Assembly: GCF_003073045.1 (NCBI RefSeq)
Contig: NC_037592.1
Location: 6,189,924-6,253,923 of the forward strand
Length of the DNA: 64,000 nt
From: Pomacea canaliculata
Taxonomy: Eukaryota > Mollusca > Gastropoda > Architaenioglossa > Ampullariidae
Reading direction: 5' to 3'
Below the pieces are notes generated by a model. The model was not told the DNA's origin, did no database searches, and was given only the letters and a program-made list of their open reading frames with translations. The position numbers were made by a program, and so were the translations under genes. Below are positions 3 to 64,000 of the stretch, piece by piece. The first letter of the stretch is position 1. Each line of letters opens with the position of its first letter.

Positions 3-3000
3 CACAGGACCGATTGTTACGGGCACTTAGCTGTACATCTTGCTGCAAAACATAACAAATGGGACTTTGTAGAATTTCTGTCCAGATATTTAAGCGACCT
101 TTCTCATCCTGACCGTGAAGGATTCAATATCTTGCACAGATTTGCGATACAATCATCCTCCAAACAGCTTCATTTGTTTTACCAGCTGTGTCACAAGGTT
201 GGTGATATAAATGCAAGAAGTAGAAGCGGTGACGCAGCGGTACACCTGGCTGCTAAATATCAGAACTGGGACACACTGCAGATGCTGGTCCAACAGGGCG
301 CACTAATCAACGAACCAGACAGTGAAGGTTGTTGCCTTTTTCAGATATTAGCTAAGGCAGGAAAAATAGAGAAATTGGCTTTCTGTTTGCTTAGGGAAGA
401 GCAGGAATTGTACTGTAACAGTCGTTTTTTGTATAAAGCCAGAAAACTCACTACCGAACAGGTTTGGTCAGTTATCGTAAAGTACATGGGAAATATAAAC
501 CAGGTAGATTCTGAGGGTTTGACTCTCGTTCAAAGACTTGTTATGAGCAAAGAAGGTCAACTCCACACTTATATATTCTGTCGCCTTCTTGAGCTCGGCG
601 CTGACGTCACCTGTCGTGACGCAAACGGCGACACTGTGTGTCATCTGGCGGCTAGAAATGGCCACTGGGAGATTGTCCGATACCTTTTGGAGCTTGGAGA
701 AGGAACGGACAACCTAGACAGCGATGGTTTGTCAGTTCTTCATAGAGCAGCAAAAGCAAATACAGAAATAGCACGAGATGTGCTTTCCTACATTCTACAA
801 CGGAATCCTGACTTACACAAGCGAACAAGACAGGGAGACACAGCCGTACATGTGGCCGCCAGATGCCAACAATGGGAGACTGTCAAGACCTTAACTAAAC
901 TCGGGGCAAACATTTTTGACTACGATAGTCAAAACACAAGCGTTCTGCAGAGAATGATTAGATGTCCCTCTTCAATCAGAATCGAGCTATCAATTCTACA
1001 AAATTCAACCGCAACATACACAGCTCAACAGTTGACCAACTCACTTTTGTTAAAAGCAGCGCAAGTCTGTAGACTGAATGTAGTTCGATTTCTGTTGGAT
1101 CAAGGGGTTAGTATACACCAACGTGACTCGGAAGGTCTTAGTCTTTTACATCACATAGCGAAAACAAGAGAATATTTCTCGATCGACATGACTGAACATC
1201 TTGAATACTTTCTGGATAAGGGCATTTGCTTGGAAGATAAATGTCCGAATGGCAACACACCTCTACACTTGGCTGCTAAGTCTGATAACTGGGATTTGGT
1301 CAATTATTTAGTGGAGCAAGGAGCAAGCATTCAAGACCCTGACAGTGAGGGCTTCTTTGTTCTCCAGCGACTGGCCATGTCCAGCAGTTATGATGAGAAT
1401 CAGCGGGAATTCCTAAGACTTGTCATCAAAAAAGGAGCTGATGTCAAAGCGCGTGACTCCAACGGAAACTCTCTGCTTCATCTTGGTGGCAAAGCGAACA
1501 ACTGGTCATTTGTTTTACATATCATACAAGAGTCTAATAACCTAGAACCAGAAGAGCTTGACAATGATGGCTTCAACTTGTTGCATAGGTTAGCACTGTT
1601 TGACGAGTGCTCAAATTGGATGGAGAAACTTTTGAACAAAAACTTTAATTTATGTGGTAATGGCGACACTTGTTTGCTTCTGGCTGCATATTTTCTGGAT
1701 AAGGGCATTGGCTTGGAAGATAAATGTCCGAATGGCAACACACCTCTACACTTGGCTGCTAAATCTGATCATTGGGGTTTAGTCAATTATTTAGTGAAGC
1801 AAGGGGCAAACATTCAAGACCCTGACAGTGACGGCGTCTATGTGCTCCAGAGATTGGCCATGTACAGTGAGTATGGTGAGAAACACATTGAAATTCTTCG
1901 ACTTCTCATCACGAATGGTGCAGATGTGAACATACTTGACTGCAATGGTGACTCTATTTTACACCTTAGCGCCAAAGCCAACAATTGGAGTTTTGTTCGT
2001 CAGATTATCCAAGAGACAGGTGACCTTATTACAGACGAGCTTGACAGTGATGGCTACAACATTCTGCACAGGTTAGCGCAATCTGGGCACTCAGAGTTGG
2101 TAGAGGCTGTCTTGAACAAAGGATGTAATGTAGAGGCCTTGAGTAGAGATGGCGACACCTGTTTACTTCTAGCTGCAAAGCGAGACAACTGGACCTTTGT
2201 AACGCGTGTACTGGGTCCCGTGTTCAGCAGAAATACTTCTCCCAGTTTTGCGCAAGATGCTCGAAGTATAAGTCAAATAAATCTTAATACAAGAGACCTA
2301 CGTGGATATACGGTCTGTTATCTTGCACTCATAAGAAAACGGTGGGACCTCCTACGACGACTGGCAGAATGGGGCTACAACATGGACATGGACATCATTG
2401 ATAACGAGGGGCTCGATCTCCTGCAGACAATGGCATCAGATAATGCTTCTGAGCTCAAAACCCATCGGAACTGGTGCAGATTGTTAAAATGCATGAAAGA
2501 AAACAGGTTTATATTCACTCAAAAAAATGGGCTTGGAAATACGCCATTTCAAACAGCCGCCAAGAATAAAAATATTCTGGGGGTAATCTGTCTTTATTTT
2601 CATTATAAAGGTGGTGAAGACTTCAATTCCACAGACAGCGATGGACTGTCTCCTTTGTACAGACTTGTCGACATACTAAATAAGTCCAAAGAGGATTTAA
2701 ACTTTCGAAAGACGCTTGCACGCATAATACAAGATATTTTGATATCATGTAAGGCACCTGAAAAAATATCTTGGGATGGCAACACGCCTCTTCATTTAGC
2801 GGCGAAGTGTAGTGAGTGGTTGACTGTCAAAATGTTGCTGCAGCACGGAGCACGAGCTGATGTGTGTGATCTCGAAGGTTTCACCGTTTTACACAGATTT
2901 GTTCAGTATGTGACAGTGAGAAAATATTTATGGCAGGAATCTACATTTTTTGTCACTAAAGCACTGTTCATTAAAAAACTTTTACAGAGTGGCGCGAGTC

Positions 3001-5684
3001 TACATCAAAAAAATCTCGAAGGAAACACGCCCCTTCATCTTGCTGTCCAGTATCAGAAGTGGGATGTAGCTACAGAGCTTGTTCACCTTGGGGCCGAGGT
3101 TAATGAACTCGACTCTGAAGGGTACACCATCCTCCAAAGACTGGCACAGGTACCATATCTCAGACATGGACACTCGTGTGTAGTACTCATTGAACTACTG
3201 CTTGAGAGAGGTGCTCGGTGCGATATTCCGTCAAAGCGCGGTGAGACTTTGTTTGACATTGTAGTTGAAAATAAAAACTGGATCATGATGAAATGTTTAC
3301 TTACTCAGGAGATGATTGTAATCAGAGAACACGACGACAAATTTCTTTTGCACCGTTTCGTCTTCAGTTACAATGGGGCTCTACACTCTGATGTCTGTGA
3401 CCTTCTGATTGAGAAAGGATTGTCTGTGAATGCTGAAGATTGTGAAGGCAACACACCACTTCATGTCGCAGCTCGAGTAGGCAACTGGGACTTGGTAGCA
3501 CACTTCATAAGAAAGGGTGGTAGTGGAAGAAAGCCAGATGGAAACGGCTTTTCCATCTTGCACAGATTTGTAACTTCTGTGAACACGTCTCATGAGGACA
3601 TGGAAGAGGATGATTATGAGGACATGGAAGAGTACCTTGACACATTAGATGTCATCCTTTCTTCAGGCGTTGATGTAAACGCTACGGACCCCCGGGGTAA
3701 CACAGCGATACATATCGCAGCGAAACGACAGCTGCTTGATATTGTGAACCACCTGATAGACATCGTTGACAACCTCAACACCACAGACAGCGATGGCTTT
3801 ACTGTGTTACTAAGACTGGCACAAACACCACATCCACAATGTCTCCATGTTTTACGCCGTCTGCTACAGAAAGGTGCTGACATAAACTTCTGCTCGATAC
3901 AAGGTGAATCAGTTCTTACACTTGCAGTCAAAAGCAACAACTGGCCTGTGGTACAATTTCTTGTCAGCAGGGGTGTACAGTGTAGTGTACAGACTCTGGA
4001 GCAGCTCCACACTATTCATAGACTAATAAAGTCTTCCTCTTCGACATTTGTCGAGGACAAGCAAGTGAAGCTGATGACATTGCTGTCAAACAGTGGATTG
4101 TCTATAAACGTTCTAGATCAGTGTGGAAAGACACCAGCAGAGCTGGCACTCATACATAAGAAATGGAAACTGTTGAGATATCTTTTGAAATCAAAAGCAC
4201 ACATAATTAGCAAAAGAGACTCATTTTTTCATGATCTTGCTAGACACTGTATCGCTGGCGACATTTTTACAGATATTACACGACTTCTGGTTATATATGG
4301 CTTGGACATTAACCAACAAAATATTTTTGGTGTTACTCCTGTTCATGTGGCAGCTGATGAAGAGAACTGGGACGCTGTTATAGTATTTGTAGAGAACGGT
4401 GCACATATAAACATCCTCGACAGATATGGGCGCAGCCTGCTTCATACAGTTGTGGGTCATCTTAGCTCGCAAGATAGTAGGCAGCTGAACAAACTACAAC
4501 TCCTAACCTTTTTGGTAGAACATGGGGCAGACATTAACAGGCGAAGTCAAAACAACAAAGCTGTTTTACAAATAGCAGCTGCGAGAGATGACTGGGAAAC
4601 TGTGGGAGCGCTCATTCAATTAGGAGCTGATTGTGAACTCACTCCCAGTGAAAAGAAGTCGGCTTTTAGTAAACTTCATCTCTTTAGGTGGGAAAATGTC
4701 GACGAGGAAAAGGTGTGTCGTTTTGTAAATTATATCACAAATGAAGTTTTTGACACCAATGATTCTTTCCAGAAAGAAGACAAATGTGATAAAAAGAAAA
4801 GTATTTTGCAGATGTGTCTAAAAAAGTCCAACTGGCCTATGGCAAAGGCGTTGGTAGAATGTGGAGCTGACGTGTTTCAGCTGTACACACATCGGACTCT
4901 GTTAGAGTTTATGATGTCTGCATATTCATACAGTAATACAACAGCATGGATGTCTTTTCTTGACTCAGTGATTGCAAAAGGATTAGACATCAACACTAAA
5001 CTTAGAAATGGATCTGGAGTACTCTTCCACGATGAGACTATCAGAAGCATAACTCGTGGAGATAAAGTTAATAGTCGTTTGTTTATTTCACTGTTGGAGA
5101 GAGGAGCTAATCCTCTGATTGTTGACTCTAGGGGACAGACATTACTTCAAACAGTACTAGAATCCGATAGAAGGAGTATGCTAAGGGGTCTGAAGAAACT
5201 TATTCCCGTTGGGGTAACGACACATCAGCCGAGATTTACTGAGGCCATGTTACAGTCACAAAGTGGTTCCACCGCACAGACTGTGTCCCCAACAGAAAAG
5301 ATGATCGAGGACAAGAATTTCTGTGTCCTGAAGTTGTTGATCGAATCAGGCGCAAGTTCAAACGCAGAGTTATTTCGTTTGAACACAGAATACCAAGTGA
5401 AGCTGGCAGGACAGGCAGACACTGATGACAATATTAGAGAGCTGCTTGAGGTGTTGAACATGGCCGCCAGTCAACCTCGCTCACTGCAATCTCTGTGTCG
5501 TCTGACTGTTTCTCACTGTCTTGGTTGTGGACCTGGAAGGACGGACAAACTCAATAGCTTGAATATTTGTCCTCTATTAAGAGAACTTGTCTCGTTTAAC
5601 GACTTACTTTCCGAAGATTTTTTTTTGCAGATCGATAAAGATGACTCGTCGAGTTCGTCAATCAGTGGTGATAAATATTATTAG
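3..5684 (+). CDS. Giant ankyrin-repeat/SOCS-box protein, copy 1 (5' end outside window)
   Basis: The frame is open from the window edge to TAG at 5682-5684, giving at least 1,893 residues; no start is assigned because ankyrin sequence is already running at base 3 (H-L-A-V-H-L-A-A-K-H-N-K-W). The protein is a long run of ankyrin repeats in two-repeat modules (G-N-T-P-L-H-L-A-A-K-x-x-N-W, then D-S-E-G-x-x-x-L-H-R-L-A). Bases 5475-5598 encode a SOCS box: P-R-S-L-Q-S-L-C-R-L-T-V (BC-box-like, Elongin B/C contact in ASB/SOCS proteins), then L-N-I-C-P-L-L-R-E-L-V where a Cul5 box would have LPLP. The end is a short D/S-rich tail (five serines, then G-D-K-Y-Y). By family knowledge this would be a cytosolic ubiquitin-ligase substrate receptor; the substrate is unknown. 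Odd points: an internal 483-bp duplication (1206-2171), an acidic D-M-E-E repeat near 3597-3640, and a 3' end almost identical to copy 4. The ankyrin/SOCS call is firm, the ligase role is inference. Confidence 0.9.
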   Translation, partial: HRTDCYGHLAVHLAAKHNKWDFVEFLSRYLSDLSHPDREGFNILHRFAIQSSSKQLHLFYQLCHKVGDINARSRSGDAAVHLAAKYQNWDTLQMLVQQGALINEPDSEGCCLFQILAKAGKIEKLAFCLLREEQELYCNSRFLYKARKLTTEQVWSVIVKYMGNINQVDSEGLTLVQRLVMSKEGQLHTYIFCRLLELGADVTCRDANGDTVCHLAARNGHWEIVRYLLELGEGTDNLDSDGLSVLHRAAKANTEIARDVLSYILQRNPDLHKRTRQGDTAVHVAARCQQWETVKTLTKLGANIFDYDSQNTSVLQRMIRCPSSIRIELSILQNSTATYTAQQLTNSLLLKAAQVCRLNVVRFLLDQGVSIHQRDSEGLSLLHHIAKTREYFSIDMTEHLEYFLDKGICLEDKCPNGNTPLHLAAKSDNWDLVNYLVEQGASIQDPDSEGFFVLQRLAMSSSYDENQREFLRLVIKKGADVKARDSNGNSLLHLGGKANNWSFVLHIIQESNNLEPEELDNDGFNLLHRLALFDECSNWMEKLLNKNFNLCGNGDTCLLLAAYFLDKGIGLEDKCPNGNTPLHLAAKSDHWGLVNYLVKQGANIQDPDSDGVYVLQRLAMYSEYGEKHIEILRLLITNGADVNILDCNGDSILHLSAKANNWSFVRQIIQETGDLITDELDSDGYNILHRLAQSGHSELVEAVLNKGCNVEALSRDGDTCLLLAAKRDNWTFVTRVLGPVFSRNTSPSFAQDARSISQINLNTRDLRGYTVCYLALIRKRWDLLRRLAEWGYNMDMDIIDNEGLDLLQTMASDNASELKTHRNWCRLLKCMKENRFIFTQKNGLGNTPFQTAAKNKNILGVICLYFHYKGGEDFNSTDSDGLSPLYRLVDILNKSKEDLNFRKTLARIIQDILISCKAPEKISWDGNTPLHLAAKCSEWLTVKMLLQHGARADVCDLEGFTVLHRFVQYVTVRKYLWQESTFFVTKALFIKKLLQSGASLHQKNLEGNTPLHLAVQYQKWDVATELVHLGAEVNELDSEGYTILQRLAQVPYLRHGHSCVVLIELLLERGARCDIPSKRGETLFDIVVENKNWIMMKCLLTQEMIVIREHDDKFLLHRFVFSYNGALHSDVCDLLIEKGLSVNAEDCEGNTPLHVAARVGNWDLVAHFIRKGGSGRKPDGNGFSILHRFVTSVNTSHEDMEEDDYEDMEEYLDTLDVILSSGVDVNATDPRGNTAIHIAAKRQLLDIVNHLIDIVDNLNTTDSDGFTVLLRLAQTPHPQCLHVLRRLLQKGADINFCSIQGESVLTLAVKSNNWPVVQFLVSRGVQCSVQTLEQLHTIHRLIKSSSSTFVEDKQVKLMTLLSNSGLSINVLDQCGKTPAELALIHKKWKLLRYLLKSKAHIISKRDSFFHDLARHCIAGDIFTDITRLLVIYGLDINQQNIFGVTPVHVAADEENWDAVIVFVENGAHINILDRYGRSLLHTVVGHLSSQDSRQLNKLQLLTFLVEHGADINRRSQNNKAVLQIAAARDDWETVGALIQLGADCELTPSEKKSAFSKLHLFRWENVDEEKVCRFVNYITNEVFDTNDSFQKEDKCDKKKSILQMCLKKSNWPMAKALVECGADVFQLYTHRTLLEFMMSAYSYSNTTAWMSFLDSVIAKGLDINTKLRNGSGVLFHDETIRSITRGDKVNSRLFISLLERGANPLIVDSRGQTLLQTVLESDRRSMLRGLKKLIPVGVTTHQPRFTEAMLQSQSGSTAQTVSPTEKMIEDKNFCVLKLLIESGASSNAELFRLNTEYQVKLAGQADTDDNIRELLEVLNMAASQPRSLQSLCRLTVSHCLGCGPGRTDKLNSLNICPLLRELVSFNDLLSEDFFLQIDKDDSSSSSISGDKYY
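1206..2171 (+). repeat. Tandem 483-bp internal duplication in copy 1
   Basis: Unit 1 (1206-1688) and unit 2 (1689-2171) are 161 codons each and stay in frame. Both begin with codons for F-L-D-K-G-I-(C/G)-L-E-D-K-C-P-N-G-N-T-P-L-H-L-A-A-K-S-D and hold two ankyrin modules, ending with G-D-T-C-L-L-L-A-A. The first 80 or so bases are nearly identical between units, while later parts have diverged more, which suggests unequal crossing-over followed by partial homogenisation. Confidence 0.85.
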
Positions 5685-11700: not shown

Positions 11701-12530
11701 TTTAATGACAGTGTTTATTTGGGTTAGATAGTCTTTGTCCTTCAGATGTGAAGAGTTTAGCTTCCATAGATTAAATCTCCTTTCCTCTTGTTCTGTAGCT
11801 AATGACAAAGTAATCAGTGAATGGTCCGTACGGTAGCCCGGAGTAATATTTGCATCCATGACCAAATTTGAGAGCAAGTCTGACATAAGGAAAAAATCTA
11901 ATCTACTCTGTTGGAATGGTCTTTTCCTACGCCAAGTATATCTTAGTGCTTCTGGGTTTAGTTCACGCCATATGTCTACTAGATCCATGTTTGTCATCAT
12001 CTTATCAACTTGTTCTTGCCCTTTAATATTATTTTTATGTTTGTAATTACGACAGTCAAGTTGAAAGTTCAAAACAATGTTCCAATCTCCTCCAATAACA
12101 ATATTTTCTACTCCTATCTGTTTAACATATTCTTCTAACTGAGAGTAGAATTTTGGGTCGTCTTTATTTGGCCCATAAACACTACCAATTAAAAACTCTT
12201 TCTCTAATGTTTTTATCACTGCCATCACATAATTTCCTCCATTATCTTTATAGACTTTTTTAATTGAAAATTCAAAGTTATTATTAAACAGAATTGCTAA
12301 CCCCCTGGAGGAAGAAGTAAATGATGCGAATATGCAGGAGTGCCCCATTCTGCGGCAATCATTTTTCCTGTTTATGTTCAAAATGTGTGTCCTGTAACAG
12401 GGTAGATTGAATAAGACTTATTCCGTAAATAATGAAACACATCTCTCCTTTTCGCATGTCCCCTAGTCCCTGACAATTCATTGATGCAAAAGTGAGTTGT
12501 AGTCTGTACTCATATTGAGTGAATAGAAAG
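8713..12530 (-). pseudogene. LINE ORF2: endonuclease/reverse transcriptase, broken
   Basis: On the minus strand an apurinic-endonuclease-like domain starts at S-M-N-C-Q-G-L-G-D (about 12459-12485) and shows I-G-G-D-W-N, S-R-L-D-F-F-L-M-S and T-D-H-S-L-I. A lysine/glutamate-rich linker follows. Reverse transcriptase begins at N-G-K-S-P-G-S-D-G-F (about 11020-11080) and shows L-D-F-E-K-A-F-D-S, G-C-R-Q-G-D-P-I-S-P and the catalytic Q-Y-A-D-D (10372-10383 for YADD). Near 9060-9130 is a C-x2-C ... H-x4-C knuckle, usual at the C-terminus of such proteins. The frame changes between about 12510 and 12381 and again between about 10936 and 10734; the two long open pieces are 12381-10936 and 10734-8713. 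With catalytic motifs present but the frame broken, it is a recently dead copy. Confidence 0.88.
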
Positions 12531-17157: not shown

Positions 17158-17424
17158 ATGCTGAGAGCCCGTCCACTGAGATGGTGGTTGATGTCGCATA
17201 CATTAGCCGAGTGTTTTAGACATGGAGCAGCTACGAGAGACAGCAATGAAAGAAGCAGTCTGTTCAGGGAACTGGACCCTCGTCAAAGAATTGTTGTGCA
17301 GAGAAGATGTGACAGATCGCGAGATTCAAGAATCGCTTGTTCTACACAAACTAGCTTCCAGGACCGACATCAGCTTGTCACTGGTCCAAGAAATTGTGGA
17401 AAACGCTTGCTTACGTCACGTTGA
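17158..17424 (+). other. Upstream ATG frame overlapping the copy 2 start
   Basis: If transcription includes this region, an ATG at 17158 opens an 88-codon frame, out of phase with copy 2 and running past its ATG at 17222; another short frame (17141-17164) precedes it. The peptide has no recognisable domain. It matters only as a possible brake on translation, or as a hint that the transcript starts further downstream. Confidence 0.3.
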
Positions 17425-20400
17425 TCTTCACCTGACCGACGACAACGGTGACACTGCTGTCATGGCGGCAGCAAGGTGTGGTAACTGGGAGATTGTGAGG
17501 TTACTGATGTCTAGGAAGGCAGCCCTACCTGACAACACAGATCACGTGATCGTCTTCCTGCGTACTCTCAGTTGTAGTGAAAACATCAGGGACAGCTACA
17601 TGTTAACTGCGGATATTTTGCGATATTCATGGAACATTCTTAAGCGAAAAACATCTGATGGAGGTGGAAGAACTATACGCACTATGTTGATTCACCTTGC
17701 TGCAAAGGTCAGCTGCTGGTGGCTCGTTCGTGATTTAGCTACTGCTGATCTTGACCTTAACACTCTACACGAAGATGGCTATGGAGTTTTGCACTGGCTT
17801 GCTAGGAATTATATCCATTCGGATGTTTCTCTTTTGCAGAAATTGCTTGACAGTGGCGCAGACATTAATTTCCCAAACAGCCACGGAGACACGGCCTTAA
17901 ATGTTGCTGCCAAAAATAACAATTGGGAAATGTTTACGTCTTTGTTGCTACTAAATGCAAACACTGCCATTTGCAACAAGGAAAAGCAAACTGTTTTTCC
18001 ACATCTTAGCTTTTTCGACTTCTTCAACAAAAGAGCACAGGAAACATTTTAGTTCTGTTTATAAACTACTGAAGACTAGATGTCAAAATATAAGCATGCA
18101 AGACGCCAGAGGAAACACAGCTTTACACTTAGCAATTCAATCAGGAAACATTACTTGTGCTAACAAATTAATTAGCTTTGGTTCTCGTTCCGACTTGCTT
18201 GATACAAATGGTCGGACTGTTCTACACTTAATGGCGACGTACACACACTTGAAATACTCGTCTCGATTTTTGAAACAAGTTATAAAAAACGGGGCTAAAC
18301 TAGAAACTAAAGATTTCGAAGAAAATACTGCTGCACAAGTAGCCGTGAAATGTAAGAACTGGAGCTACGTGAAACAGTTAAAGGATGAAGGGGCTGATTT
18401 TGACTTTGTGAACTCTGACAATCAAAGGAGTATGGCCTGTGACTGGGTGGCTTCAGGGGAAATGCCACAAGATGTTCTCAGCGTCTTCTCTCCCCGTGAA
18501 AGCAATAGGATTTCATCATTCAGTAGCTTCATTTCGTCTGATCCCAACCCGTTAGATGAAGCTGTTGAGAACAAAAATTGGGAATATGTTAAACAACGGG
18601 TTAAAAAAAACATAAGGATTATTAACAATCCTGACAAAAATGGCTACACTTTACTACATAAAATTGCACAAGTGAGGGCAGACAAAAGCTTGGAAAATGT
18701 TCTTTGTTTTCTACTTAATAGAAGTGCAGATGTCACTGTTAGGACTCCAAACGGTGAAAGTCTTTTACATCTGGCAGCCAGACACGAGAACTGGCTTGTC
18801 GTAAAGATTGTACTGGAAAACAGACATAAGATCAAAACAAACGGTTCTGCTGACTATCTTGGCATAAATATCCCTGACAGTCAAGGATTGAATATTCTTC
18901 ATAGACTCGCACAAACCAATCAAAGAAATTACAGATATCTTCCGAACAAAGGGAGGGAAGACGAATTGACGCTCCTTGTTCCCACACTTCTCCAGTATGT
19001 CACAGATGTATCAGTTCCAAGTGAAGCTGGTGACACTGCCATCCACTTGGCGGCTAAAAGTGGAAACTGGAAAATGGTTCAAACAATAGCGAGTATATAT
19101 GCGCAACAAAGAAAACCTTTAAGCGAGCTTGATAGAGAGGGATTCAACATACTTCACAGACTTACAAAATTCAAAGTCACACACAAGAAAAAGGTTCAGA
19201 TTTTGAAGGTCTTATTCCAAGCAGGTTTAAATCTCGATTGTAAGTGTAAACATGGCGAAACAGCTCTACAGATGGCTGTAAAGCAAGAACAGTGGAAGTT
19301 TGCTAGAGCTCTGGTCACCCTTGGGGCAGATGTTCATGAACGAGATCCGGGAGGACGTCACATCCTTCAAATGATCGCTACACAAAATATCAGTGATGAT
19401 CAGATTGATGGCTGCATTTCATTCATAACTCTTCTCAATCAATCAGATGTAGACTTTAATGTAAGGTGTCCGAACGGGGACTCATTCTTTCAGTTAGCTG
19501 CCCGTCACGGCAACTGGCAGATATTGGAGAAGGTGGTTGTTCATGTAACCCTCGATATAAAAGACGTCGATACAAAAGACGATGAAGGATTTACAGTTCT
19601 TCAAAGGCTGGCCAGTAGTGAAAGTGCCTACCATATTCATCTTCTTCAATTTCTTTTGGAGAAAGGAGCCAGATGTGACACGCTGAATTTTAGGGGGGAT
19701 AGCGCCATGCACTTGGCTGCAGAGAAAAATAACTGGTATATAATTGAACAGTTGCTTGCAAGTGAGACTAAGCCCCATTCAGATCCGACCACTGCTGAAA
19801 CGGATTGTCAAATCGGTGATACAAGTGCCTGTAAACACATATTACACACCACAGACACAGATGGGGCAGGAAGGGCACATTTCGATATAGACCTAAAAGA
19901 TCATTCTGGAAACACAGTTTTATATCTGAGCGCCAAGAAAGGGAAATGGGATTTGGTTCATAAGTTGCTGATGCTTGGCTCAGATGCCACGTTAACTGAT
20001 GACAAAGGCCACACGGTCATGTACTGGCTAGCGGCTGAAGACCATGCGACGATTGCAAATGACAGACAGAGGAAGAAAGTTCTACAATGCTTGAAAATCT
20101 CAAGTGTAGCCCTGGATGAAAAAGATGACTTCGGGGACACATTGATACAAGTTGCTGCCAGAAACAAAAATTTAGATATCGTGAATATACTTCTTGATGC
20201 CGTGGAGGACATCAACATGATTGACAGTAGTGGCTTTACTATTCTGCACAGAGCCGTGCTGTGTAACCCATCGGTGTCTTTGCACATCGTAAAGACCTTA
20301 ATTGACAAAGAGGTGGACATAGAATGTCGCTGTCCAGATGGCAATACCGCCCTGCATCTGGCTGCTAATAGCAGGAACTGGACTGTCGTGCAAATGTTGC

Positions 20401-37708: not shown

Positions 37709-38045
37709 GGATGACTACAGCTTAGAATCGTTGCCTACCTTCCCAAACCCTCAGTGGCGTCAGGTACTGGTTGGACAGTAGCTAGGGAGACGAGAAGGAC
37801 ACCTACCTCCTTGACCTCGAATGTTAAGCCCCTGGTGACCTGAAAAGGTTATGTGACTACCTTTAGCTTTACAGCTTACACTCGGACATAAAACGTAGAT
37901 CATAGTCAACAACAGATATGGCGACCAATCAACACAATGAGGTTTCCCTCAGGTTCAGTCAGCATGCAGAGAATCTACATCCAAAAAATAAAATGTGTAC
38001 AGAACTAAACTCCGCTTCTGACTCTAGAACTGGACTTTTGTGTGG

Positions 38046-44000: not shown

Positions 44001-44576
44001 ATGTTGCAGTCACAAAGTGGTTCCACCGCACAGACTGCATCCCCAACAGAAAAGATGATCGAGGACAAGAACATCTTTGTCCTGAAGATGTTGATCGAAT
44101 CAGGCTCAAGTTCAAACGCAGAGTTATTTCGTCTGAACACAGAATACCAAGTGAAGCTGGCAGGACAGGCAGACACTGATGACAATATTAGAGAGCTGCT
44201 TGAGGTGTTGAACATGGCCGCCAGTCAACCTCGCTCACTGCAGTCCCTGTGTCGTCTGACTGTTTCTCACTGTCTTGGTTGTGGGCCTGGCAGGACGGAA
44301 AAACTCAATAGCTTGAATATTCCCCCTGTATTGAGAGATCTCGTCTTGTTTCGTGATCATTTCACGGATTCCCTTTCTGAAAGCAACTCAAACTCCATTG
44401 AACCTAAAAATATCTCGATTGATGGCAGCTCATCAGATGATGGTAGCGATGAGCTCACCAACAGCAACTATTGTAGCAGCGAAAGTGATCATAGCGAAGG
44501 GAATCCCATCACTGCGTTACGAATGCTAAGAGACTTGATGCACATCAAAGCTAAGTCTAACATGATGCTTCTTTGA
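38046..44576 (+). CDS. Giant ankyrin-repeat/SOCS-box protein, copy 4
   Basis: Longest member, 2,176 residues from the first in-frame ATG to TGA at 44574-44576, with no break. It starts M-I-A-E-C-Y-D-V-T-R-C-D-I; the ATG context is weak. Compared with copy 5, at least four small indels lie at 38025-38063, so the ancestral N-terminus (S-R-N-W-T-C-V-D-D-L-L) is lost or replaced. Several dozen ankyrin repeats in two-repeat modules follow. Residues about 1235-1270 (from 41750) carry an acidic insert (D-S-E-E-E-F-S-Q-D-S-E-E-S-F-S-Q, E-Y-E-Y-E-Y). The SOCS box at 44229-44352 reads P-R-S-L-Q-S-L-C-R-L-T-V, then L-N-I-P-P-V-L-R-D-L-V. The C-terminal tail is rich in S, D, E and N. N-terminal DNA is nearly identical to copy 5 and SOCS-region DNA to copy 1. 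Role by family: Elongin-BC/Cul5 substrate receptor (inferred). Confidence 0.92.
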   Translation: MIAECYDVTRCDIEQSCLLHRLAAAPEVSLSLARDVITKILKHEVDINMVDTSGDTAVVVAARCDNTKMVMELLSRQAALPPDVTHVCSFLQTLTNNWKPQETPYMHALVVKLLWDRLQDTALHSCHKQLHHTLVRLAVTFHTSLVREMFVTEQQVNSVDSEGMAVLHRVAMFDSDDHIRVVLFLIIKGADVNLQNTTGDTPLHVAVKHKNWTMMEVLLHRQAYSNVVNCDQRSVLHIVASHTDPNDFPKLDKILPLLIRNNNDINKEDGEGNTALHLAALAGNMGFVKTLLDNGARADGVDKEQKTVLHMMAMTNSYIFSDTSLYIPVLLVILKKGVDTHARDTEGNSALCLAAKHDNWDMVEILLKYFDNAAEPDSEGFNILHRSAMSLLNKSLFYQVSQRVSDINKKSLTGDAPIHLAAKCNNWGIVRLLLREGAIIDDLDHEGFHILHRMATGGNGHNYLSRYMAKCTNYNTRCRTGETVLQLAAKHDNWPMVYHLAKHVENVDEVDSEGLTIIQRLVMTHTPSFPLFCRLIDLGADYTCRDRNGDTLLHLAARKDHWEIVQHLIQSGLPADTPDSEGFVILHRAAASTRDSMSQYVFQYLLKHDPDLNKRTNSGDTVIHLAAKHERWETVVTLMEHGANPFDCDSEGTSVLDRVVKGSCSPDQESSILKMAIQRNKALVLANNTLVFEAANSGKWDVVQYLVDQGVNIHQLDSQGLSLLHIIAKREQSLCQDQSINKLVKVLLDNGMSMEDRYPNDNTPLKLAAKSNNWGLVEYLLLQGATVQSPDSEGVFVLQRLAMYSEYNDSHRQLLQLLIKAGADVNVRHPSGDSLLHLSARVNNWSFVSHIVQERSNYDLDELDSDGFNILHRLAQFDRGAEWVEKGLIKEFKLDATCGNGDTCLLLAAKQEKWVFITCILKHILNKSSQPCNNDLHRFRLDTSSERIHHTITSLGIQNVQDCLPMLDKRDERGYTVWHYAAMKKQWDIIRELTECGVNTEHVDDEGLNILQKMASDCEYSVRGKECLTTFLKEKGFDFTIKDDFGNTLLQLAAKNNNLQMVTLLLNHVDDVRVKDSDELPVLHRVVPMISKSISSECEKVVTRLIKSGAEVEEPSWDDNTPLHVAGKCNSRSLVSLLLTHGAQAEVCDSEGLSLLHRLAIQDITISIVDELLQSGASMNQKDLQGNTPLQLAVHHQNWEVARKLVECGAEVNELDYEGYTVLHRLAQIQHPKQNPYHQDTEDSEEEFSQDSEESFSQEYEYEYICLARIVLEKGGKCDILSRRGETICEIAARNENWDIMKCLLTRGTPPLRVHNTSLLHCLAASYDGDNQINVCDLLMEKGLSAETEDHDGNTVLHLAAKAGNWDLVKHLLQKGATCRTLDSNGFSVLHRFVSDMNIYADSRRLDVLDMILSSNVDVNAEDPRGNTAIQTAAKRQLLDIVDRLIDTVENFNTKDSDGFTLLLRLSQTPDNLSLCQHLVQEGADINACSTDGDSVLTLAVKNDNWSVVELLLNKGAHVHVHILQNLYAIHRLIRCRKFTSDFDDLQIMELFINKGVSKDMPDFCRKTPAELALTHKKWKLLTFLLRCGACLNNSPTKRLLVFHELAKCMSASTHSTDITRLLISRGLDINLQNSAGDTPVHVAADNDNYDTVTTFVENGADTNTLDRKGKSLLYKIIHKLIWEPIVTPESGIQFILHWTSELSQPDLAMFYQALFNPNLENLERTELVPKSLVKLIKTLKEFGADFNWRGPENKTVFQMAVDRERWEVVRVLLETGAEYSLSKQEKQSTMNSLHNLKWNDVSENKVKSFIEYITNDLSDTDNSFQDNRRSADLQTVLQKCVECSNWRMATVLVECRGERCGMNTQESLLGKMMSRYSQNEHAEWTSFLDLLISEGLDINSKLQNGSGVLFHDETIKSLTSDEKGFANSLFYALMERGADPLVENSAGQTLLREVVCFGGQRTLNALKKLLPFGVTTHQPRFTEAMLQSQSGSTAQTASPTEKMIEDKNIFVLKMLIESGSSSNAELFRLNTEYQVKLAGQADTDDNIRELLEVLNMAASQPRSLQSLCRLTVSHCLGCGPGRTEKLNSLNIPPVLRDLVLFRDHFTDSLSESNSNSIEPKNISIDGSSSDDGSDELTNSNYCSSESDHSEGNPITALRMLRDLMHIKAKSNMMLL

Positions 44577-50489: not shown

Positions 50490-50637
50490 TTGTGACTACA
50501 GCTTAGACTGGGAACTATGATTGGCACATGAAACAATTGTCAACAACGTAAACGACGACCAATCCACAGTATCAGGTTTCTTCAGGTTTCGTCAACATTC
50601 AGCAGAAGCTGCTTTGGAAACAAAATCTGTAAATAAA

Positions 50638-53600
50638 ATGTGGCGAAAACTAAAATCCGCTGCTGACTCTAGAAACTGGACTTGTGTGGATGACTTGCTG
50701 AGTGCTAGTGACGTCACTAGGTGTGACATAAAGCAGAGTTGTCTTCTCCACAGACTAGCAGCAGCACCGGAAGTCAGTCTGTCACTTGCACGAGATGTTA
50801 TAACGAAAATCTTAAAACATGAAGTCGACATCAACATGGTGGATACAAGCGATGACACAGCTGTCGTGGTGGCTGCCAGATGTGACAACACAAAGATGGT
50901 GATGGAGCTTCTATCCCGACAGGCAGCTCTACCACCTGATGTAACACACGTGTGTTCTTTCTTGCAGACTCTGACTAACAACTGGAAACCACAAGAGACG
51001 CCTTATATGCACGCGCTTGTTGTCAAACTGTTGTGGGACAGACTACAAGACACAGCACTACACAGCTGTCACAAACAGCTTCACCACACACTGGTCCGGC
51101 TGGCAGTCACGTTTCACACGTCACTTGTACGTGAAATGTTTGTAACAAAACAACAAGTGAACTCTCTAGACAGTGAGGGGATGGCCGTGTTACACAGGTT
51201 AGCCATGTTTGATAGCGAGGACCATGTCCGTGTCGTCCACTTTCTGATCAGTAAAGGAGCAGACGTCAACCTACAGAACAGGACAGGTGACACACCTCTA
51301 CATGTTGCGGCAAAACATAAAAACCTGACGATCATGAAGGCTTTGCTGTTCAGTGGGGCTAACAGCGATGTGGTTGATTATGAACAGCAAACAGTGTTAA
51401 ACATTATGGTATCTGACTGTGATCGTGACAAGTCTTATAAAATAGAACTCTTACTTCCATTGTTAATCCATAACAACAGCGACATCAACAAAAGGGACAG
51501 AGAAGGAAACACAACCTTACATCTGGCAGCACTCGCCGGTAACACATGGTTTATGAAGCCATTGTTAGATCATGGTGCCCGTGCTGATGTTGTTAATGAC
51601 AAACAGAGGACAGTGTTACACATGTTGGCGATAAGTGGCGATCTGTCTGTAACACATAACAACAATTATTTATTAGCAATAAAGAAAGGCGCAGAGGTTC
51701 AGAAACAAGATTCAGATGGCAACTTGGCTATACATCTTGCAGCCAGACATGAGAACTGGGACTTGGTGAAAGCTTTGTTAGAATACTCCGATGTTAATAT
51801 GTCCGACAGTGAAGGGTTCAACGTTCTGCACAGATTTGCCATGGGGTCAGATTCAAGTAAATATGATATGTTTCACGAACTAATTCAGAATGTTTCTGAT
51901 ATTAATGCAAGATGTCAGACTGGTGATACAGCTATTCATCTTGCTGCGAAAAATAACAACTGGAAGATTGTAGGACTATTGCTAAAAGAAGGCGCCATAT
52001 TTGAAGAACTAGATAGCGATGGCTTAAACATTCTTCACAGACTAGCAAAGTTAGAGAATTGGACTGGTTTGGCCCCTGAATATGAATCATTGCCCAGTCG
52101 TGATTCTGAATACGTTGAAGATGTGTTGCTGCTTCATTTTCGAAGAAAGAAGATCAGCTACAACATCCCAACACCAGCTGGTGAAGTCGCACTACACTTA
52201 GCTGCTAAACATAATAACTGGTTACTGGTCAAACGCCTAGCAGAAGCAGGTGAAAACATAAACGAGACAGACTCCGAGGGCCTGACTGTCATACAAAGAC
52301 TTGTGACGAGCACTACTGACAAGGCATGTGAACAACACTCATTATTCTGTCACCTCTTGGAGCTCGGCGTTGACAGCACATGTGATCAAAATGGCGATAC
52401 TTTGCTGCACCTGGCTGCTAGAAATGAGCGCTGGAGTATTGTCCAATACCTTGTCAGTCGTGGAGCAAGCGCAGACACACCTGACAGCGAGAGTTTTCTA
52501 ATTCTTCACAGAGCAGCATCTACGAGCAGACGAGATTCATCTGCACTCTCTCCACTTCGTGATCTAGGTCCTTCTATTCTGACCAACAGTTCCATTATAC
52601 ACAAGCAAACAACACGTGGTGACACAGCCGTACATCTGGCAGCACAGAATGAACATTGGGATGATGTCATGACCTTGATTAATCACGGAGCCAATGTCTT
52701 CGACACTGACTTTGAGCACACAAGCGTTCTTCAGAGGATGGTTCAGAGTCCATCTACCTTAGAATGGAGCATAAGCATACTTCACAAAGCAAAATCAAAT
52801 ACGACAAACCAAAACACCGACAGAACACTTGGAAGACTTCTGTATGATGCAGCGAGATGTGGAAGATGGGAAGTGGTCTATCATCTGCTGAGTGTAGGAG
52901 TCTGGATGCACCAAGAGGGCTCAGAGAGGGGAAGCCTGTTACACATGTTAGCTAAAGGGAGGCAGTTTCGGTATGAACACCAAACTATTTGTAAAGCAAT
53001 TAATCTGCTTCTCACTAAGGGTATAGACTTAGAAGATCGTTGCCCAGACGGAAACACCGCCCTGCAACTGGCTGCTAAATTCAATAATTGGAATGTCGTC
53101 AAATGCTTAGCTGAGCAAGGAGCAAACTGCAAAGGCCCTGACAGCGAAGGTGTCTTCGTCCTTCAAAGATTGGCCATGTACAAAGACTTTCATAAAGATA
53201 TGATTGAGCTTGAACAACTTATTTTCCAAAAAGGTACAGATGCAACAGACTTAGAAGATCGATGTCCAAACGGAAACACCGCGCTACAGAATGCTGCTAA
53301 ATTGGATAACTGGGATATGGTCAGATGTTTAGTTGAGCAAGGAGCAAACACCAAAGGCCCGGACGTCGACGGTATTTTCATCCTACAGAGACTGGCCGAG
53401 TACAAAGGTTTTCATGAGAGCATGATTGAGCTTGTTCAGCTTCTTCTCCAGAGTGGGGCAGATGCAAGTATTTGTTGCTCCAACGGCGACTCTCTTCTTC
53501 ACCTTGGTTCCAGAGCCAACAACTGGTCTTTTGTTCATTGCATCATCAGAGAGACAGATGACCTGGGCCTAGACAAACTTGACAGTGATGGTTTCAACGT

Positions 53601-56058
53601 GATGCACAGGCTAGCACAATCTGACAACGGTTCAGATTGGTTACAAAAATTTCTAAAAAAGCAATTTAATTTAAATACCCTGAGTCGAAATGGAGATAAC
53701 TGCTTACTTCTGGCTGCAAAACAGGAAAACTGGACTTTTGTCCAAAGTTTTCTGGAGTTTATTTTAAGAAAAAATCCACGATCACCTTGTGAAGAGTTTC
53801 GTGATTTCATGCCAGAACACGATCTTTTTAAAGACATAACAAATAAAATCGCTTTTCTAGGTCTTTTACAAAATAAAGACCCTTTTGTCACAGACAAAAT
53901 AAACCTAGACCAACGAGACTTGTGTGGATACACAGTCTGGCATCTTGCAGTCAGGAAACAAGTTTTGCTTGTCGGACATCTTGCGGAATGTGGAGCTGAC
54001 ACAGATCTTGTCGACGATGAAGGACTCGGTGTCCTGCACACATTAGCCTCAAACAATTCTGTGAACTATAGGAAGGCAGATTATCTTTTGAAATTGATAA
54101 GCAAGAAAAGGCATGTCATTGTAAGAGATGAACTTGGAAATACTCCTTTGCAAGTAGCTGCCAAGAAGGAGAATCTTCTATTTATTACTTTGCTTCGTGA
54201 CTTTTTTCAAACTTATTCTAAAGACAGCGATGGACTTCCTCTTCTGCACAGAATTGTGAAGATTAATCCCCTAAATGATCCTTATATGTCTTTGCTTATA
54301 AACATCGTTAAATATCTGTTGATGTCTCGAGCTAGCGTAAATGAAATGTCTGTGGACAATGAAACGCCTCTTCAAATTGCGAGTAAATTTAACAACTGGT
54401 CAGTTGTCGGGCTGTTACTAGAACACGGTGCCCAGGCTAATATGTGTGATTCAGAGGGTCAGTCAGTCTTACACAGATATGCGAGTCTAGATTGGTCAAA
54501 ACTTCTTCTTATGGGAAGTCAGGTACAACTAGCTCAAAAACTCTTGGATGCTGGTGCAGATATTCAATTAAAAGATCTCCAAGGGAACACGCCTCTTCAT
54601 CTTGCTATCCAACATAGTAACTTACATGTGGCTCAAGAGCTCGTTGTGTGTGGGGCGGATGTCAGAGAAGTCGACTCTGAAGGCTACACTGTCCTCCACC
54701 GAATGGCACAAATAGAGGACAATCATGATCTCGAGTGTCAACCACAACCACTAACTCAACTTTTACTTGACAGAGGCGCCAGATGTGACATCTATTCAAA
54801 CAGCAGTGAAACCATTCTTGACATTGTAACTGAACATGGAAACTGGTGGATAATGAAGTGTTTGCTAGAACAAGGAGTGTTAGCTAAAGCAAAACTCAAA
54901 AGGAAATTTATTTTGCACAAACTGGCTTCTTGTACCTTTGGAAATAGTTCCACTGATGTCTGTCAACTGCTGATTGAGAATGGGTTGTCTGTTAATGCTA
55001 AAGATCCTGATGGCAACACACCGCTACACCTCGCAGCAAGTGCAGGCAACTGGTACTTGGTAGTACACTTGATACAAAAAGGTGCAAGTGTTAGAACGGT
55101 AAACAGGAATGGCCGTTCCATCTTGCACCGATTTTTTAGTGATGTTAAGAGGATTGACGGTCCTAGTCTTGAAGTTATCCTCACTTCTGGTGTTTTACAC
55201 GCTGCAGACCCTCGGGGTAACACAACTTTGCACATGGCAGCAAAACGTGAACTATTTGACATGGTGGACCGCCTTCTAGACTGCGTTCAAAATATCAACA
55301 TCAAAGACAGTGAAGGATTTACTGTACTACTGAGACTGTCACAAACACCTCATCCAAAATGTCTGCCCGTGTGTCAGCGTCTGGTTGAGGCCGGTGCTGA
55401 CATCAACACCTGTTCGTCCAGTGGGGTATCAGCTCTTGAGCTTGCAATCAGAAGCAACAACTGGCCTGTGGTATACCTTCTACTGCACAGCGGTGGACAC
55501 TTTGATGTGAAGGTTATGGATCAGTTTCAAGTTTTGCATCATCTAATAAAATGTCTCCCTTCAGCGATTCCTTTTGATAATTTGCTGAAAGTAGTGACAT
55601 TGTTAGCAAACAGCGTAGTGTCCTTAAATAAGTCAGATTCCAGCAGACAGACACCAGCGGATCTGGCATTCAAACACGAAAAGTGGGATGTCCTGGTGTA
55701 CCTTCTAGAACAAGGTGTCCGTCTGAATAACAGCGAACGACCAGGAAGTTCAGTTTTTCTCGAGCTGGCTAAAAACAGTTCCGATGGTGTAAAGGCGACA
55801 AGTCTTCTGATTAGAAATGGTCTGGACATTAACTTAAAAAACAGTTATGGTAAGACACCTGTACATGTTGCAGCGGACGAAGACAGGTGGGACATTGTCA
55901 AAATCTTTGTGGAGCACGGCGCAGATGTAAATATACCTGACAGAAATGGGTACAGTTTGCACCATAAACTCTTACACCCTCCTTCGCGAAATGAATATCG
56001 TGAATCAAATTTTGCATTGTTATGTACGTTGGTGCAGTCCAAGGCAGATGTCAACTGA
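50638..56058 (+). CDS. Giant ankyrin-repeat protein, copy 5, lacking the SOCS box
   Basis: The first in-frame ATG is at 50638 (A at -3), giving M-W-R-K-L-K-S-A-A-D-S-R-N-W-T-C-V-D-D-L-L, and the frame is unbroken for 1,806 residues. The frame is open back to 50521 without another ATG. N-terminal residues to about 180 are almost identical to copy 4, then similarity drops sharply. Two-repeat ankyrin modules run to the end, including a 222-bp tandem duplication at 53026-53469. The protein stops at G-A-D-V-N-like K-A-D-V-N where relatives go on with W-R-G-P; homology ends inside that tryptophan codon and the junction makes TGA (56056-56058). About a quarter of a typical C-terminal region, with the SOCS box, is missing. 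If translated it could bind targets but not, by known rules, Elongin B/C. Confidence 0.9.
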   Translation: MWRKLKSAADSRNWTCVDDLLSASDVTRCDIKQSCLLHRLAAAPEVSLSLARDVITKILKHEVDINMVDTSDDTAVVVAARCDNTKMVMELLSRQAALPPDVTHVCSFLQTLTNNWKPQETPYMHALVVKLLWDRLQDTALHSCHKQLHHTLVRLAVTFHTSLVREMFVTKQQVNSLDSEGMAVLHRLAMFDSEDHVRVVHFLISKGADVNLQNRTGDTPLHVAAKHKNLTIMKALLFSGANSDVVDYEQQTVLNIMVSDCDRDKSYKIELLLPLLIHNNSDINKRDREGNTTLHLAALAGNTWFMKPLLDHGARADVVNDKQRTVLHMLAISGDLSVTHNNNYLLAIKKGAEVQKQDSDGNLAIHLAARHENWDLVKALLEYSDVNMSDSEGFNVLHRFAMGSDSSKYDMFHELIQNVSDINARCQTGDTAIHLAAKNNNWKIVGLLLKEGAIFEELDSDGLNILHRLAKLENWTGLAPEYESLPSRDSEYVEDVLLLHFRRKKISYNIPTPAGEVALHLAAKHNNWLLVKRLAEAGENINETDSEGLTVIQRLVTSTTDKACEQHSLFCHLLELGVDSTCDQNGDTLLHLAARNERWSIVQYLVSRGASADTPDSESFLILHRAASTSRRDSSALSPLRDLGPSILTNSSIIHKQTTRGDTAVHLAAQNEHWDDVMTLINHGANVFDTDFEHTSVLQRMVQSPSTLEWSISILHKAKSNTTNQNTDRTLGRLLYDAARCGRWEVVYHLLSVGVWMHQEGSERGSLLHMLAKGRQFRYEHQTICKAINLLLTKGIDLEDRCPDGNTALQLAAKFNNWNVVKCLAEQGANCKGPDSEGVFVLQRLAMYKDFHKDMIELEQLIFQKGTDATDLEDRCPNGNTALQNAAKLDNWDMVRCLVEQGANTKGPDVDGIFILQRLAEYKGFHESMIELVQLLLQSGADASICCSNGDSLLHLGSRANNWSFVHCIIRETDDLGLDKLDSDGFNVMHRLAQSDNGSDWLQKFLKKQFNLNTLSRNGDNCLLLAAKQENWTFVQSFLEFILRKNPRSPCEEFRDFMPEHDLFKDITNKIAFLGLLQNKDPFVTDKINLDQRDLCGYTVWHLAVRKQVLLVGHLAECGADTDLVDDEGLGVLHTLASNNSVNYRKADYLLKLISKKRHVIVRDELGNTPLQVAAKKENLLFITLLRDFFQTYSKDSDGLPLLHRIVKINPLNDPYMSLLINIVKYLLMSRASVNEMSVDNETPLQIASKFNNWSVVGLLLEHGAQANMCDSEGQSVLHRYASLDWSKLLLMGSQVQLAQKLLDAGADIQLKDLQGNTPLHLAIQHSNLHVAQELVVCGADVREVDSEGYTVLHRMAQIEDNHDLECQPQPLTQLLLDRGARCDIYSNSSETILDIVTEHGNWWIMKCLLEQGVLAKAKLKRKFILHKLASCTFGNSSTDVCQLLIENGLSVNAKDPDGNTPLHLAASAGNWYLVVHLIQKGASVRTVNRNGRSILHRFFSDVKRIDGPSLEVILTSGVLHAADPRGNTTLHMAAKRELFDMVDRLLDCVQNINIKDSEGFTVLLRLSQTPHPKCLPVCQRLVEAGADINTCSSSGVSALELAIRSNNWPVVYLLLHSGGHFDVKVMDQFQVLHHLIKCLPSAIPFDNLLKVVTLLANSVVSLNKSDSSRQTPADLAFKHEKWDVLVYLLEQGVRLNNSERPGSSVFLELAKNSSDGVKATSLLIRNGLDINLKNSYGKTPVHVAADEDRWDIVKIFVEHGADVNIPDRNGYSLHHKLLHPPSRNEYRESNFALLCTLVQSKADVN
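53026..53469 (+). repeat. Tandem 222-bp module duplication in copy 5
   Basis: Units 53026-53247 and 53248-53469 each encode 74 residues beginning D-L-E-D-R-C-P-(D/N)-G-N-T-A-L-Q and containing E-Q-G-A-N-x-K-G-P-D. One unit equals one two-repeat ankyrin module, which shows the module is the step by which the array grows. Confidence 0.85.
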
Positions 56059-62025: not shown

Positions 62026-64000
62026 ATGGAAGTGGACCAAAAGCAAGATATGTTGGTAATGGCCATGGATATCGATCCAGAGCCTTGGGAGTCTACTGAC
62101 CATGTTTTAAGCCCGCAGAGACTTCACTTTGAAGAGACCTCACCGCTGAGTGCAAAGGCAACAGAACTTAAGGCAGCTGCTGCATGTGGCAACTGGAGTC
62201 TTGTCCACAACTTGTTGAGTTCCAGCAGCATCACCAGATGTGATATAGAATGGAGCTCTCTGTTCCATACCCTGGCAGCAGCACCAGAAGTCAGTCTACC
62301 ACTTGCAAAAGATATATTGACGAAAATATTGATACACAAAATTGACATCAATCTGGTGGACAAAAACAAAAACACAGCTATCGTGCTTGCTGCTAGATGT
62401 GACAACACAAAGATGGTGATAGAACTTTTATCCAGACAGGCAGCTTTACCACAGGATGAAACACATGTGTGTTCTTTCTTGCAGACTCTGACAAAAACTT
62501 GGAAACAAGAAGAGGCACGCTATATGCATGTGCTTGTTGTAAAACTGTTATGGGACAGACTAAAAGACAGAGTTCTATATAGTTGTCAGAAGCTACTTCA
62601 TGGGACACTGGTCCAGCTGGCAGTGACATTTCATGTGTCTCTTGTTCGTGAGATGTTCTTAACAAAACTACAACTGAACACTCTGGACAGTGAGGGAATG
62701 GCTGTATTACACCGATTGGCCATGTTTGATAGCGATAACCATGTTCGTCTTGTTCACTTTCTAATCAACAAAGGGGCAAACATCCACCTACAGAACACTA
62801 CAGGGGACACAGCTCTGCATGTTGCAGCAAAACAGAACAACTGGATGATGATGGGAGCTTTGTTAAGAAGACAGGCTACCACTGATGTTGCTGATTGCGA
62901 TCAGCGCTCTGTGTTACACATTCTAGCTTCTCACACTGATCCTGAATGCTTTTCTAAAATTGACCAGATACTTACATTGTTGATTTGTAACAATAATGAC
63001 CTCAACAAAAAAGACGGTCATGGTAATACAGCCTTACATCTGGCAGCACTTGCCGGTAACATAACATTTATGAAGAAATTATTAGATGGTGGTGCTTGTG
63101 CTGATTGTGTTAATGACGAACAAAAGACAGTGTTGCACATGATAGCTATGACCAAAAGCAAAATCTTTTTAACATTTGATTCGTGCATGAGCATTCTCAT
63201 GTTGATTTTAAAAAGAGGGGCAGATGTTGACAAAGTAGATAGTGAGGGTAACTCAGCTGTGCACATTGCTGCCAACCATGAAAACTGGGTTCTGGTGGAA
63301 TTTTTGTTGAAATACGTAGACAATACTACTCAGCCTGACAGCGAAGGCTTCAACATTTTGCACAGATTTGCAATGAAGAAGCCATTTGCCAGGATGAATG
63401 TATTGTTTTACAAGCTGTCTCAGAAGGTCGCTGATATAAATGCAAGAAGTCGGACTGGTGATACAGCCATAGACCTAGCTGTTAAGGGTCAAAACTGGGG
63501 GCTTGTGAAGCTATTAGTAGAAGAAGGTGCTACTTGGTATGAAATAGATGATGAAGGATATGATGTTCTTGAACAATTTGCAATGGCAGAAAATACACAA
63601 GATTTTTTCTTTCCCTTTTTTCTAGAAAAGAGCATTAACTATAACACCCAGTCTTTGGTTGGAGACACAGCATTGCATCTGACAGCGAGATATGGTAAGC
63701 GGTCTGAAGTAGAACGCATTGTAAAACATGTAGAAAATATTGATGAGGTAGATTCTGAGGGTTTGACAGTTATTCAGAGATTAGTTATGAAAGTCACTGA
63801 CATGTATTCTACGCATCATTTTTTGATCCATCATCTTCTTGAGCGTGGTGCTGATTATACCCGTTGCGATCCAAATGGTGACACTGTGCTGCACCTGGCT
63901 ACCAAGAATGGCCACTGGGAGGTTGTCAAATGCCTGGTGGAGCTTGGAGTAAGGACAGACACGCTTGACAGTGAGGGATTTTCGATTCTTCACAGAGCAG
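62026..64000 (+). CDS. Giant ankyrin-repeat protein, copy 6 (3' end outside window)
   Basis: From ATG 62026 (M-E-V-D-Q-K-Q-D-M-L-V) the frame stays open through 658 codons to the last base, ending in D-S-E-G-F-S-I-L-H-R-A. It is the segmental duplicate of copy 3, differing by scattered substitutions (for example M-L-V for T-S-V after Q-D/Q-E), with many silent. N-terminal family region, then two-repeat ankyrin modules. Whether it reaches a SOCS box, and whether it shares the two frame breaks of copy 3 (which would fall beyond the window), is unknown. The start matches that of copy 3, including G at -3 and +4. Confidence 0.9.
   Translation, partial: MEVDQKQDMLVMAMDIDPEPWESTDHVLSPQRLHFEETSPLSAKATELKAAAACGNWSLVHNLLSSSSITRCDIEWSSLFHTLAAAPEVSLPLAKDILTKILIHKIDINLVDKNKNTAIVLAARCDNTKMVIELLSRQAALPQDETHVCSFLQTLTKTWKQEEARYMHVLVVKLLWDRLKDRVLYSCQKLLHGTLVQLAVTFHVSLVREMFLTKLQLNTLDSEGMAVLHRLAMFDSDNHVRLVHFLINKGANIHLQNTTGDTALHVAAKQNNWMMMGALLRRQATTDVADCDQRSVLHILASHTDPECFSKIDQILTLLICNNNDLNKKDGHGNTALHLAALAGNITFMKKLLDGGACADCVNDEQKTVLHMIAMTKSKIFLTFDSCMSILMLILKRGADVDKVDSEGNSAVHIAANHENWVLVEFLLKYVDNTTQPDSEGFNILHRFAMKKPFARMNVLFYKLSQKVADINARSRTGDTAIDLAVKGQNWGLVKLLVEEGATWYEIDDEGYDVLEQFAMAENTQDFFFPFFLEKSINYNTQSLVGDTALHLTARYGKRSEVERIVKHVENIDEVDSEGLTVIQRLVMKVTDMYSTHHFLIHHLLERGADYTRCDPNGDTVLHLATKNGHWEVVKCLVELGVRTDTLDSEGFSILHRA

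Follow-up and report, generated by a model that had tools for sequence, protein, structure and literature searches.

The stretch of Pomacea canaliculata DNA analyzed here (64,000 nucleotides, C3:6189924-6253923, where C3 stands for contig NC_037592.1; "the window" below) carries part of a tandem array of very long ankyrin-repeat genes, several of which end in a SOCS box. Our data suggest that these genes probably represent a giant gastropod family of the ASB type, whose products would act as oversized substrate receptors of Elongin B/C-Cullin5 ubiquitin ligases, and whose members come and go by birth-and-death evolution.

Six homologous ankyrin-rich coding stretches lie in the window (c1 to c6, Table 1), all on the plus strand, and Pfam ankyrin models match every one of them (best E=1.1e-140, in c4). 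The Pfam SOCS_box cut-off of 23.5 bits is exceeded in four of the six (c1, c2, c3 and c4). The box of c6 lies outside the window, at C3:6256419, and a Pfam scan found none in c5, the 3' end of which is broken. Because c2, c3 and c4 are also frame-broken, c1 is the only copy in which no break was seen within the window, while the c6 frame stays open past the window end. In c4, the break falls about 40 residues past the first ATG, and a later in-frame ATG is available.

A first-pass annotation of the window had described six giant, single-exon copies with a terminal SOCS box and the architecture of ubiquitin-ligase receptors. The receptor architecture is borne out by the four significant SOCS_box matches and by the structural comparison below, which uses a model of modest confidence. 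A lack of significant SOCS_box matches, one of the two outcomes named there as refuting the idea, is thus not what was observed; nor do the data show the other, that every copy is an untranscribed pseudogene, eight long frames being open. The six same-strand ankyrin copies are there as described, but c2 and c3 are frameshifted, the start of c4 is disrupted and c5 lacks the SOCS box. Single-exon coding fits the eight open copies discussed below, with the qualification that seven of the eight carry, as judged by eye, an acceptor-like AG some 20-65 nt before the ATG, which suggests an intron in the 5' untranslated region.

A search of 440,159,624 bases in 24 contigs gave 95 Pfam SOCS matches; 14 of them fall in frames of 1,000 residues or more, and all 14 are at loci of the giant family on C3 and C7 (both hand counts). 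Across 12 aligned C-termini, most of them chosen as SOCS matches, S-L..L-C-R is invariant. A profile built from these 12 reaches ASB7 (7e-11) and ASB8 (6e-8) among solved structures over the SOCS region, and through its repeat part it scores ankyrin-only chains still higher. When a model of the C-terminal 333 residues was compared with known structures by Foldseek, ASB7 in complex with Elongin B/C came first (E=1.1e-4, the sole match with E<=0.001), with ASB8 seventh and ASB9 eighth. We also gathered 26 SOCS sequences, broken copies and short relatives included, with a pattern demanding [LW]CR; LCR in 25 of the 26 is therefore no test of the BC-box core. Shorter, C-terminal-only relatives with LPVP occur at C3:6065540-6066994, 6091580-6093004 (minus strand), 6097990-6099432 and 6114394-6114807, one of them thus on the opposite strand.

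The body of these proteins is built from a 72-residue unit of two ankyrin repeats, the second of which contains a long, variable loop. The unit was captured with a 72-position two-repeat model; a first ankyrin model was dropped in its favor, as it had mainly picked up the leading repeat of a pair. By coverage, I1 has 27.6 units, I2 26.9, I4 26.1, I3 18.0 and L030-L034 15.8-19.1 (Table 1), which by the same measure gives about 32-55 ankyrin repeats per open copy (15.8-27.6 units, eight open frames). Units are fully colinear in the pairs I1-I2 and I1-I4 (rho 1.00), and only weakly so in four pairs that span clusters (rho 0.42-0.54). In an AlphaFold2 model (mean predicted local distance difference test score, pLDDT, 79.4), the last 800 residues of c1 form a solenoid of ankyrin helix pairs.

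The family extends well beyond the window. In the window and its flanks, family frames span C3 from 6.065 to 6.267 Mb, and matches of two protein queries yield at least 48 N-terminal loci (hand count), so that the tandem expansion proposed earlier is supported, with clusters on both C3 and C7. Among the matches listed, 14 loci lie at C3:6.07-6.26, five at C3:4.33-4.39, 10 at C7:1.16-2.03 and 16 at C7:7.46-7.67, and three further single places, one of them a fragment, are on C7; all N-terminal loci among these matches are on C3 and C7, and some are partial or contain stops. A run of 100 N within the array (C3:6139936-6140035) is probably a contig join, and the copy order across it therefore rests on scaffolding. 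In the family member L052 (C3:4327000-4333800), a frame of 1,428 residues runs out in sequence that does not resemble ankyrin and picks up again some 0.7 kb further on, the pattern expected if an insertion had split it.

Some copies look intact and are apparently kept readable by selection, whereas many others are frameshifted, truncated or stop-bearing. Eight single open frames of 1,588-2,356 residues run from the N-terminal region through the SOCS region, located in four clusters or places that belong to two chromosomes; those outside the C3 array come from L030-L034, the five loci picked there as likely long frames. The long open frames are beyond chance. In a neutral simulation at half the I1-I2 synonymous divergence (dS), I1 and I2 acquired on average 24.8 and 24.3 stops, with a minimum of 12 in 300 runs, and I4, at half its dS to c5, acquired 58.2 on average; none is observed in any of the three. 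Over their whole length, 21 pairs have ratios of nonsynonymous to synonymous substitution (dN/dS) of 0.31-0.62. Copies of the family are presumably expressed.

Homogenization is visible at synonymous sites. Among I1, I2, I4, c4 and c5, we followed dS in windows for seven of the ten pairs. All seven have dS of 0.00-0.13 in alignment columns 100-200, compared with whole-length values of 0.62-0.84 in six pairs and 0.19 in I1-I2. In the six pairs other than I1-I2, dS is 0.23-0.47 in columns 200-300, and beyond these it mostly ranges from 0.4 to values above 1. The pair I1-I2 is recent, has low dS in several other windows as well and does not mark off a 5' block, and I3 is less homogenized at columns 100-200 (dS 0.56 to I1). 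As the divergence is low at synonymous sites, the pattern suggests gene conversion of the 5' end more than protein constraint. At the 3' end (columns 2600-2700), dS is 0.12 for I1-c4, 0.44 for I1-I4, 0.42 for I4-c4 and 0.98 for I1-I3; homogenization is thus clear for the first pair, less so for the next two and absent for the last. The variable middles between homogenized ends that the first-pass annotation had noted therefore hold for the 5' end, and for the 3' end in part. In a self-comparison, duplicated blocks, flanks included, reach up to 8.2 kb at 95.3% identity.

Together, these observations suggest a model in which the long ankyrin solenoid would bind substrate proteins and the C-terminal SOCS box would dock on Elongin B/C and, in copies that retain the cullin motif, presumably also on Cullin5-Rbx2, upon which the bound protein would be ubiquitinated. 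The family would grow and decay by tandem or segmental duplication and by gain or loss of repeat units, its 5' ends and in part its 3' ends would be homogenized by gene conversion, and copies would be lost through frameshift and truncation.

Several points weigh against this model. The SOCS_box match of c1 is barely over the cut-off (23.9 versus 23.5 bits), and three SOCS-like ends (C3:6266448, 6176537 and 6150489, that of I4 included) were recognized from their motif alone, outside the set of 95 Pfam matches. A single-sequence search with the SOCS end of c2 reaches ASB7 only at E=0.16. The C-terminal model has a mean pLDDT of 68.3, and its match to ASB7 superposes poorly overall (template modelling score 0.30, root-mean-square deviation 18.1). 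Cullins were found at five loci (hand count), among which Cullin5 was not distinguished. LPxP is kept in 14 of the 26 SOCS sequences and in one of the four in the window, so that several copies may bind Elongin B/C without Cullin5. For I3 (mean 6.4 stops) and L033 (mean 3.7), the minimum of 300 neutral runs is zero, which makes these two, taken alone, weak evidence for selection.

The first-pass annotation had also proposed selection for recognition diversity, and here the dN/dS comparison that it called for speaks against the proposal. Binding positions were set apart from the framework by the DARPin-type pattern. Three recent pairs, 5,144 codons in all, were pooled for the substitution counts, most of which come from I1-I2; the pairs include the broken copies c3 and L049, represented by in-frame pieces only and with the middle piece of c3 excluded. 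The binding positions are no faster than the framework, either in the first repeat (dN/dS 0.31 versus 0.42, p=0.75) or in the second (0.39 versus 0.48, p=0.88). The inter-helix loop, at 0.75, is faster than both frameworks (p=0.001 and 0.007, from counts of nonsynonymous and synonymous differences), and residues outside the units are at 0.87; neither the loop (p=0.96) nor the latter (p=0.82) exceeds 1, and no position class does so significantly with this counting method and these few pairs. In I1-I2 the loop reaches 1.14, or 0.99 with inserts pooled. Among older pairs, first-repeat binding positions exceed the framework in two of three (0.53 versus 0.39 and 0.57 versus 0.37), all below 1. In L033-L049, one of the recent pairs, the second-repeat binding positions stand at 1.30, from five versus one changes. 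Recognition diversification is thus not supported, this one simple test being against it. We regard it as unlikely that the family is a diversified, possibly immune, intracellular recognition system in which each solenoid would detect proteins that are foreign or altered and target them for degradation. Such a system would agree with the large tandem birth-and-death family, the homogenized 5' ends with divergent middles, the varying unit number, the fast loops, the two older pairs and the precedent of the F-box and MATH adapters of Caenorhabditis; the binding positions of the recent pairs, and pooled loop and outside-unit residues, neither of which exceeds 1, argue the other way. The nematode adapters are likewise greatly expanded substrate adapters of cullin ligases, and their expansions have been proposed to restrict pathogens (PMC5392922). 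They are of a different type, however, and are reported to show positive selection in their substrate-binding domains (same source), which the simple test did not find in the snail.

Three further explanations bear on the broken copies and the variable cullin motif. The family could be a duplicated ASB family in neutral drift, in which gene conversion and the instability of the arrays set the copy number, a few copies are under constraint and the others are decaying. The many damaged copies would fit, as would dN/dS values below 1 overall that approach 1 only in loops or outside units in some pairs; yet the eight long frames, spread over four clusters or places on C3 and C7, have stayed open, three of them (I1, I2 and I4) where about 24-58 stops were expected. 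We consider drift possible, with the balance leaning against it. It is rather doubtful that assembly errors account for the frame breaks and that most copies are intact genes. The assembly was made from PacBio reads and polished with Illumina reads (PMC6129957), and the coding stretches of c3 and L049 carry only two and one 1-bp indels, respectively, relative to open sisters of 96.8% identity (c6 in the case of c3). Several lesions each are present, however, in c5, in L050 (a 293-bp deletion among them) and in the copy at C3:6145916-6150593, and c4 has several 1-bp differences within about 35 bp, at least two of them outside homopolymers. Finally, some copies might be decoys or scaffolds that bind Elongin B/C and are not ligases, having kept the BC box and lost the cullin motif. 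LPXP is described as selecting the cullin (PMC4403949), and its position reads LNIC in c1, LKIP in c3, LNIP in c4 and LLPS in I4, in line with the partial retention given above. I1, c2, L033 and L034 retain LPxP, so the motif is not lost by the family as a whole, and we hold the decoy explanation to be fairly improbable.

In the reading as ASB-type receptors, the closest known relatives are ASB7, ASB8 and ASB9, in which an ankyrin array is likewise followed by a C-terminal SOCS box; the best Foldseek match and the SOCS-region profile matches are ASB chains. The snail family differs from them in the 72-residue unit with its long variable loop, in length (1,588-2,356 residues in open copies versus 309 for the solved chain of ASB7 and 274 for that of ASB8, constructs that may be cut) and in copy number (at least 48 N-terminal loci by hand count versus 18 human ASBs; PMC4403949). 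Foldseek also matched the 800-residue model to the long ankyrin solenoids of ankyrin-1, ankyrin-B and NOMPC, which share the fold. The snail copies, in contrast, end in a SOCS box, and Pfam scans of the window copies found no channel or spectrin-binding domain.

A literature search for such a giant family in molluscs or for an ankyrin-SOCS expansion gave no title describing one among the part of the matching literature covered. By term search of the main text as far as available, "ankyrin" and "ubiquitin" are absent from PMC6129957, and "ankyrin" and "SOCS" from PMC11417965. A coral or amphioxus host was rejected because of the mitochondrial contig (C24, 15,707 bp), whose gene order, read over 14,000 bp, is of the caenogastropod kind, so that a lophotrochozoan host, a gastropod, is supported; a search for the GFP family also gave no match, a weak negative because no control matched either. 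A viral or bacterial origin was considered and rejected. Of 16 pattern stretches that the C-terminal profile picked in viral_contigs, not one could be confirmed; the N-terminal profile gave 13 loci from 71 stretches (29-34% identity) and the 800-residue profile one locus from 30 stretches in genome_contigs (28%), all of which we took, unread, as generic ankyrin matches.

At about five to eight times the length of the solved ASB7 and ASB8 chains (about 300 residues), and with about 32-55 repeats, the family would widen the range of SOCS-box receptors; it would also provide a naturally occurring set of long ankyrin solenoids and, for an invasive snail, a candidate for recognition through ubiquitin that can be put to the test. 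Should drift turn out to be the explanation, it would still be a clear case of birth and death with end homogenization in a cullin-adapter family. A bolder idea, to which we give very little credence, is that apple snails and perhaps other gastropods possess a Cullin5-based set of dozens of giant receptors, in which divergent middles and variable loops would read different foreign proteins inside the cell, and gene-converted 5' ends would keep new middles under the same control region and start.

Table 1. Features of the window and long frames of the family. Plain numbers are window positions.
Feature	Position	Strand	Remarks
Copy c1 (= I2)	3..5681	+	Last 1,893 codons of a 2,289-residue open frame starting at C3:6188738, upstream of the window; ankyrin array and SOCS box
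SOCS box of c1	5472..5585	+	23.9 bits; LNIC where LPxP is expected
Copy c2	17222..22109	+	Two overlapping frames (17222-18049 and 17955-22109), single frame break near 18.0k; ankyrin array and SOCS box
SOCS box of c2	21933..22049	+	33.3 bits; LPIP
Copy c3	28421..33115	+	Three frames, 1-bp indels at 31110 and 31775 relative to c6; ankyrin array and SOCS box
SOCS box of c3	32891..33004	+	27.7 bits; LKIP
Copy c4	38028..44573	+	2,182-residue open frame, first part broken by 1-bp indels; ankyrin array, SOCS box and acidic tail
SOCS box of c4	44226..44339	+	32.5 bits; LNIP
Copy c5	50521..56055	+	1,845-residue open frame, ankyrin; early end, decayed remnants to about 57.1k; no SOCS box found
5' block homogenized among copies, place in c5	50760..51330 (approximate)	+	Alignment columns 100-300; boundaries by eye
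222-bp tandem duplication in c5	53025..53434	+	About one two-ankyrin unit
Copy c6 (= I3)	62026..64000	+	First 658 codons of a 1,588-residue open frame ending at C3:6256709; SOCS box beyond the window
I1	C3 array		Open, 2,356 residues
I2 (= c1)	C3 array		Open, 2,289 residues
I3 (= c6)	C3 array		Open, 1,588 residues
I4	C3 array		Open, 2,263 residues; SOCS region by motif
L030	Outside the C3 array		Open, 1,753 residues; N-terminal match begins about 70 residues late
L031	Outside the C3 array		Open, 1,624 residues
L032	Outside the C3 array		1,707 residues; stop inside the N-terminal region
L033	Outside the C3 array		Open, 1,702 residues
L034	Outside the C3 array		Open, 1,638 residues

The window also holds a remnant of a long interspersed nuclear element on the minus strand (8713-12417), with reverse transcriptase and zf-RVT domains in one frame and, in another, an endonuclease-like domain that scores just under or near the Pfam cut-offs; the frame of the element is broken between 10794 and 10936. 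Two short tandem repeats were seen, one of 24 bp within c4 (41770-41828), which encodes an acidic, serine-rich stretch, and one of 29 bp between c4 and c5 (47299-47374).

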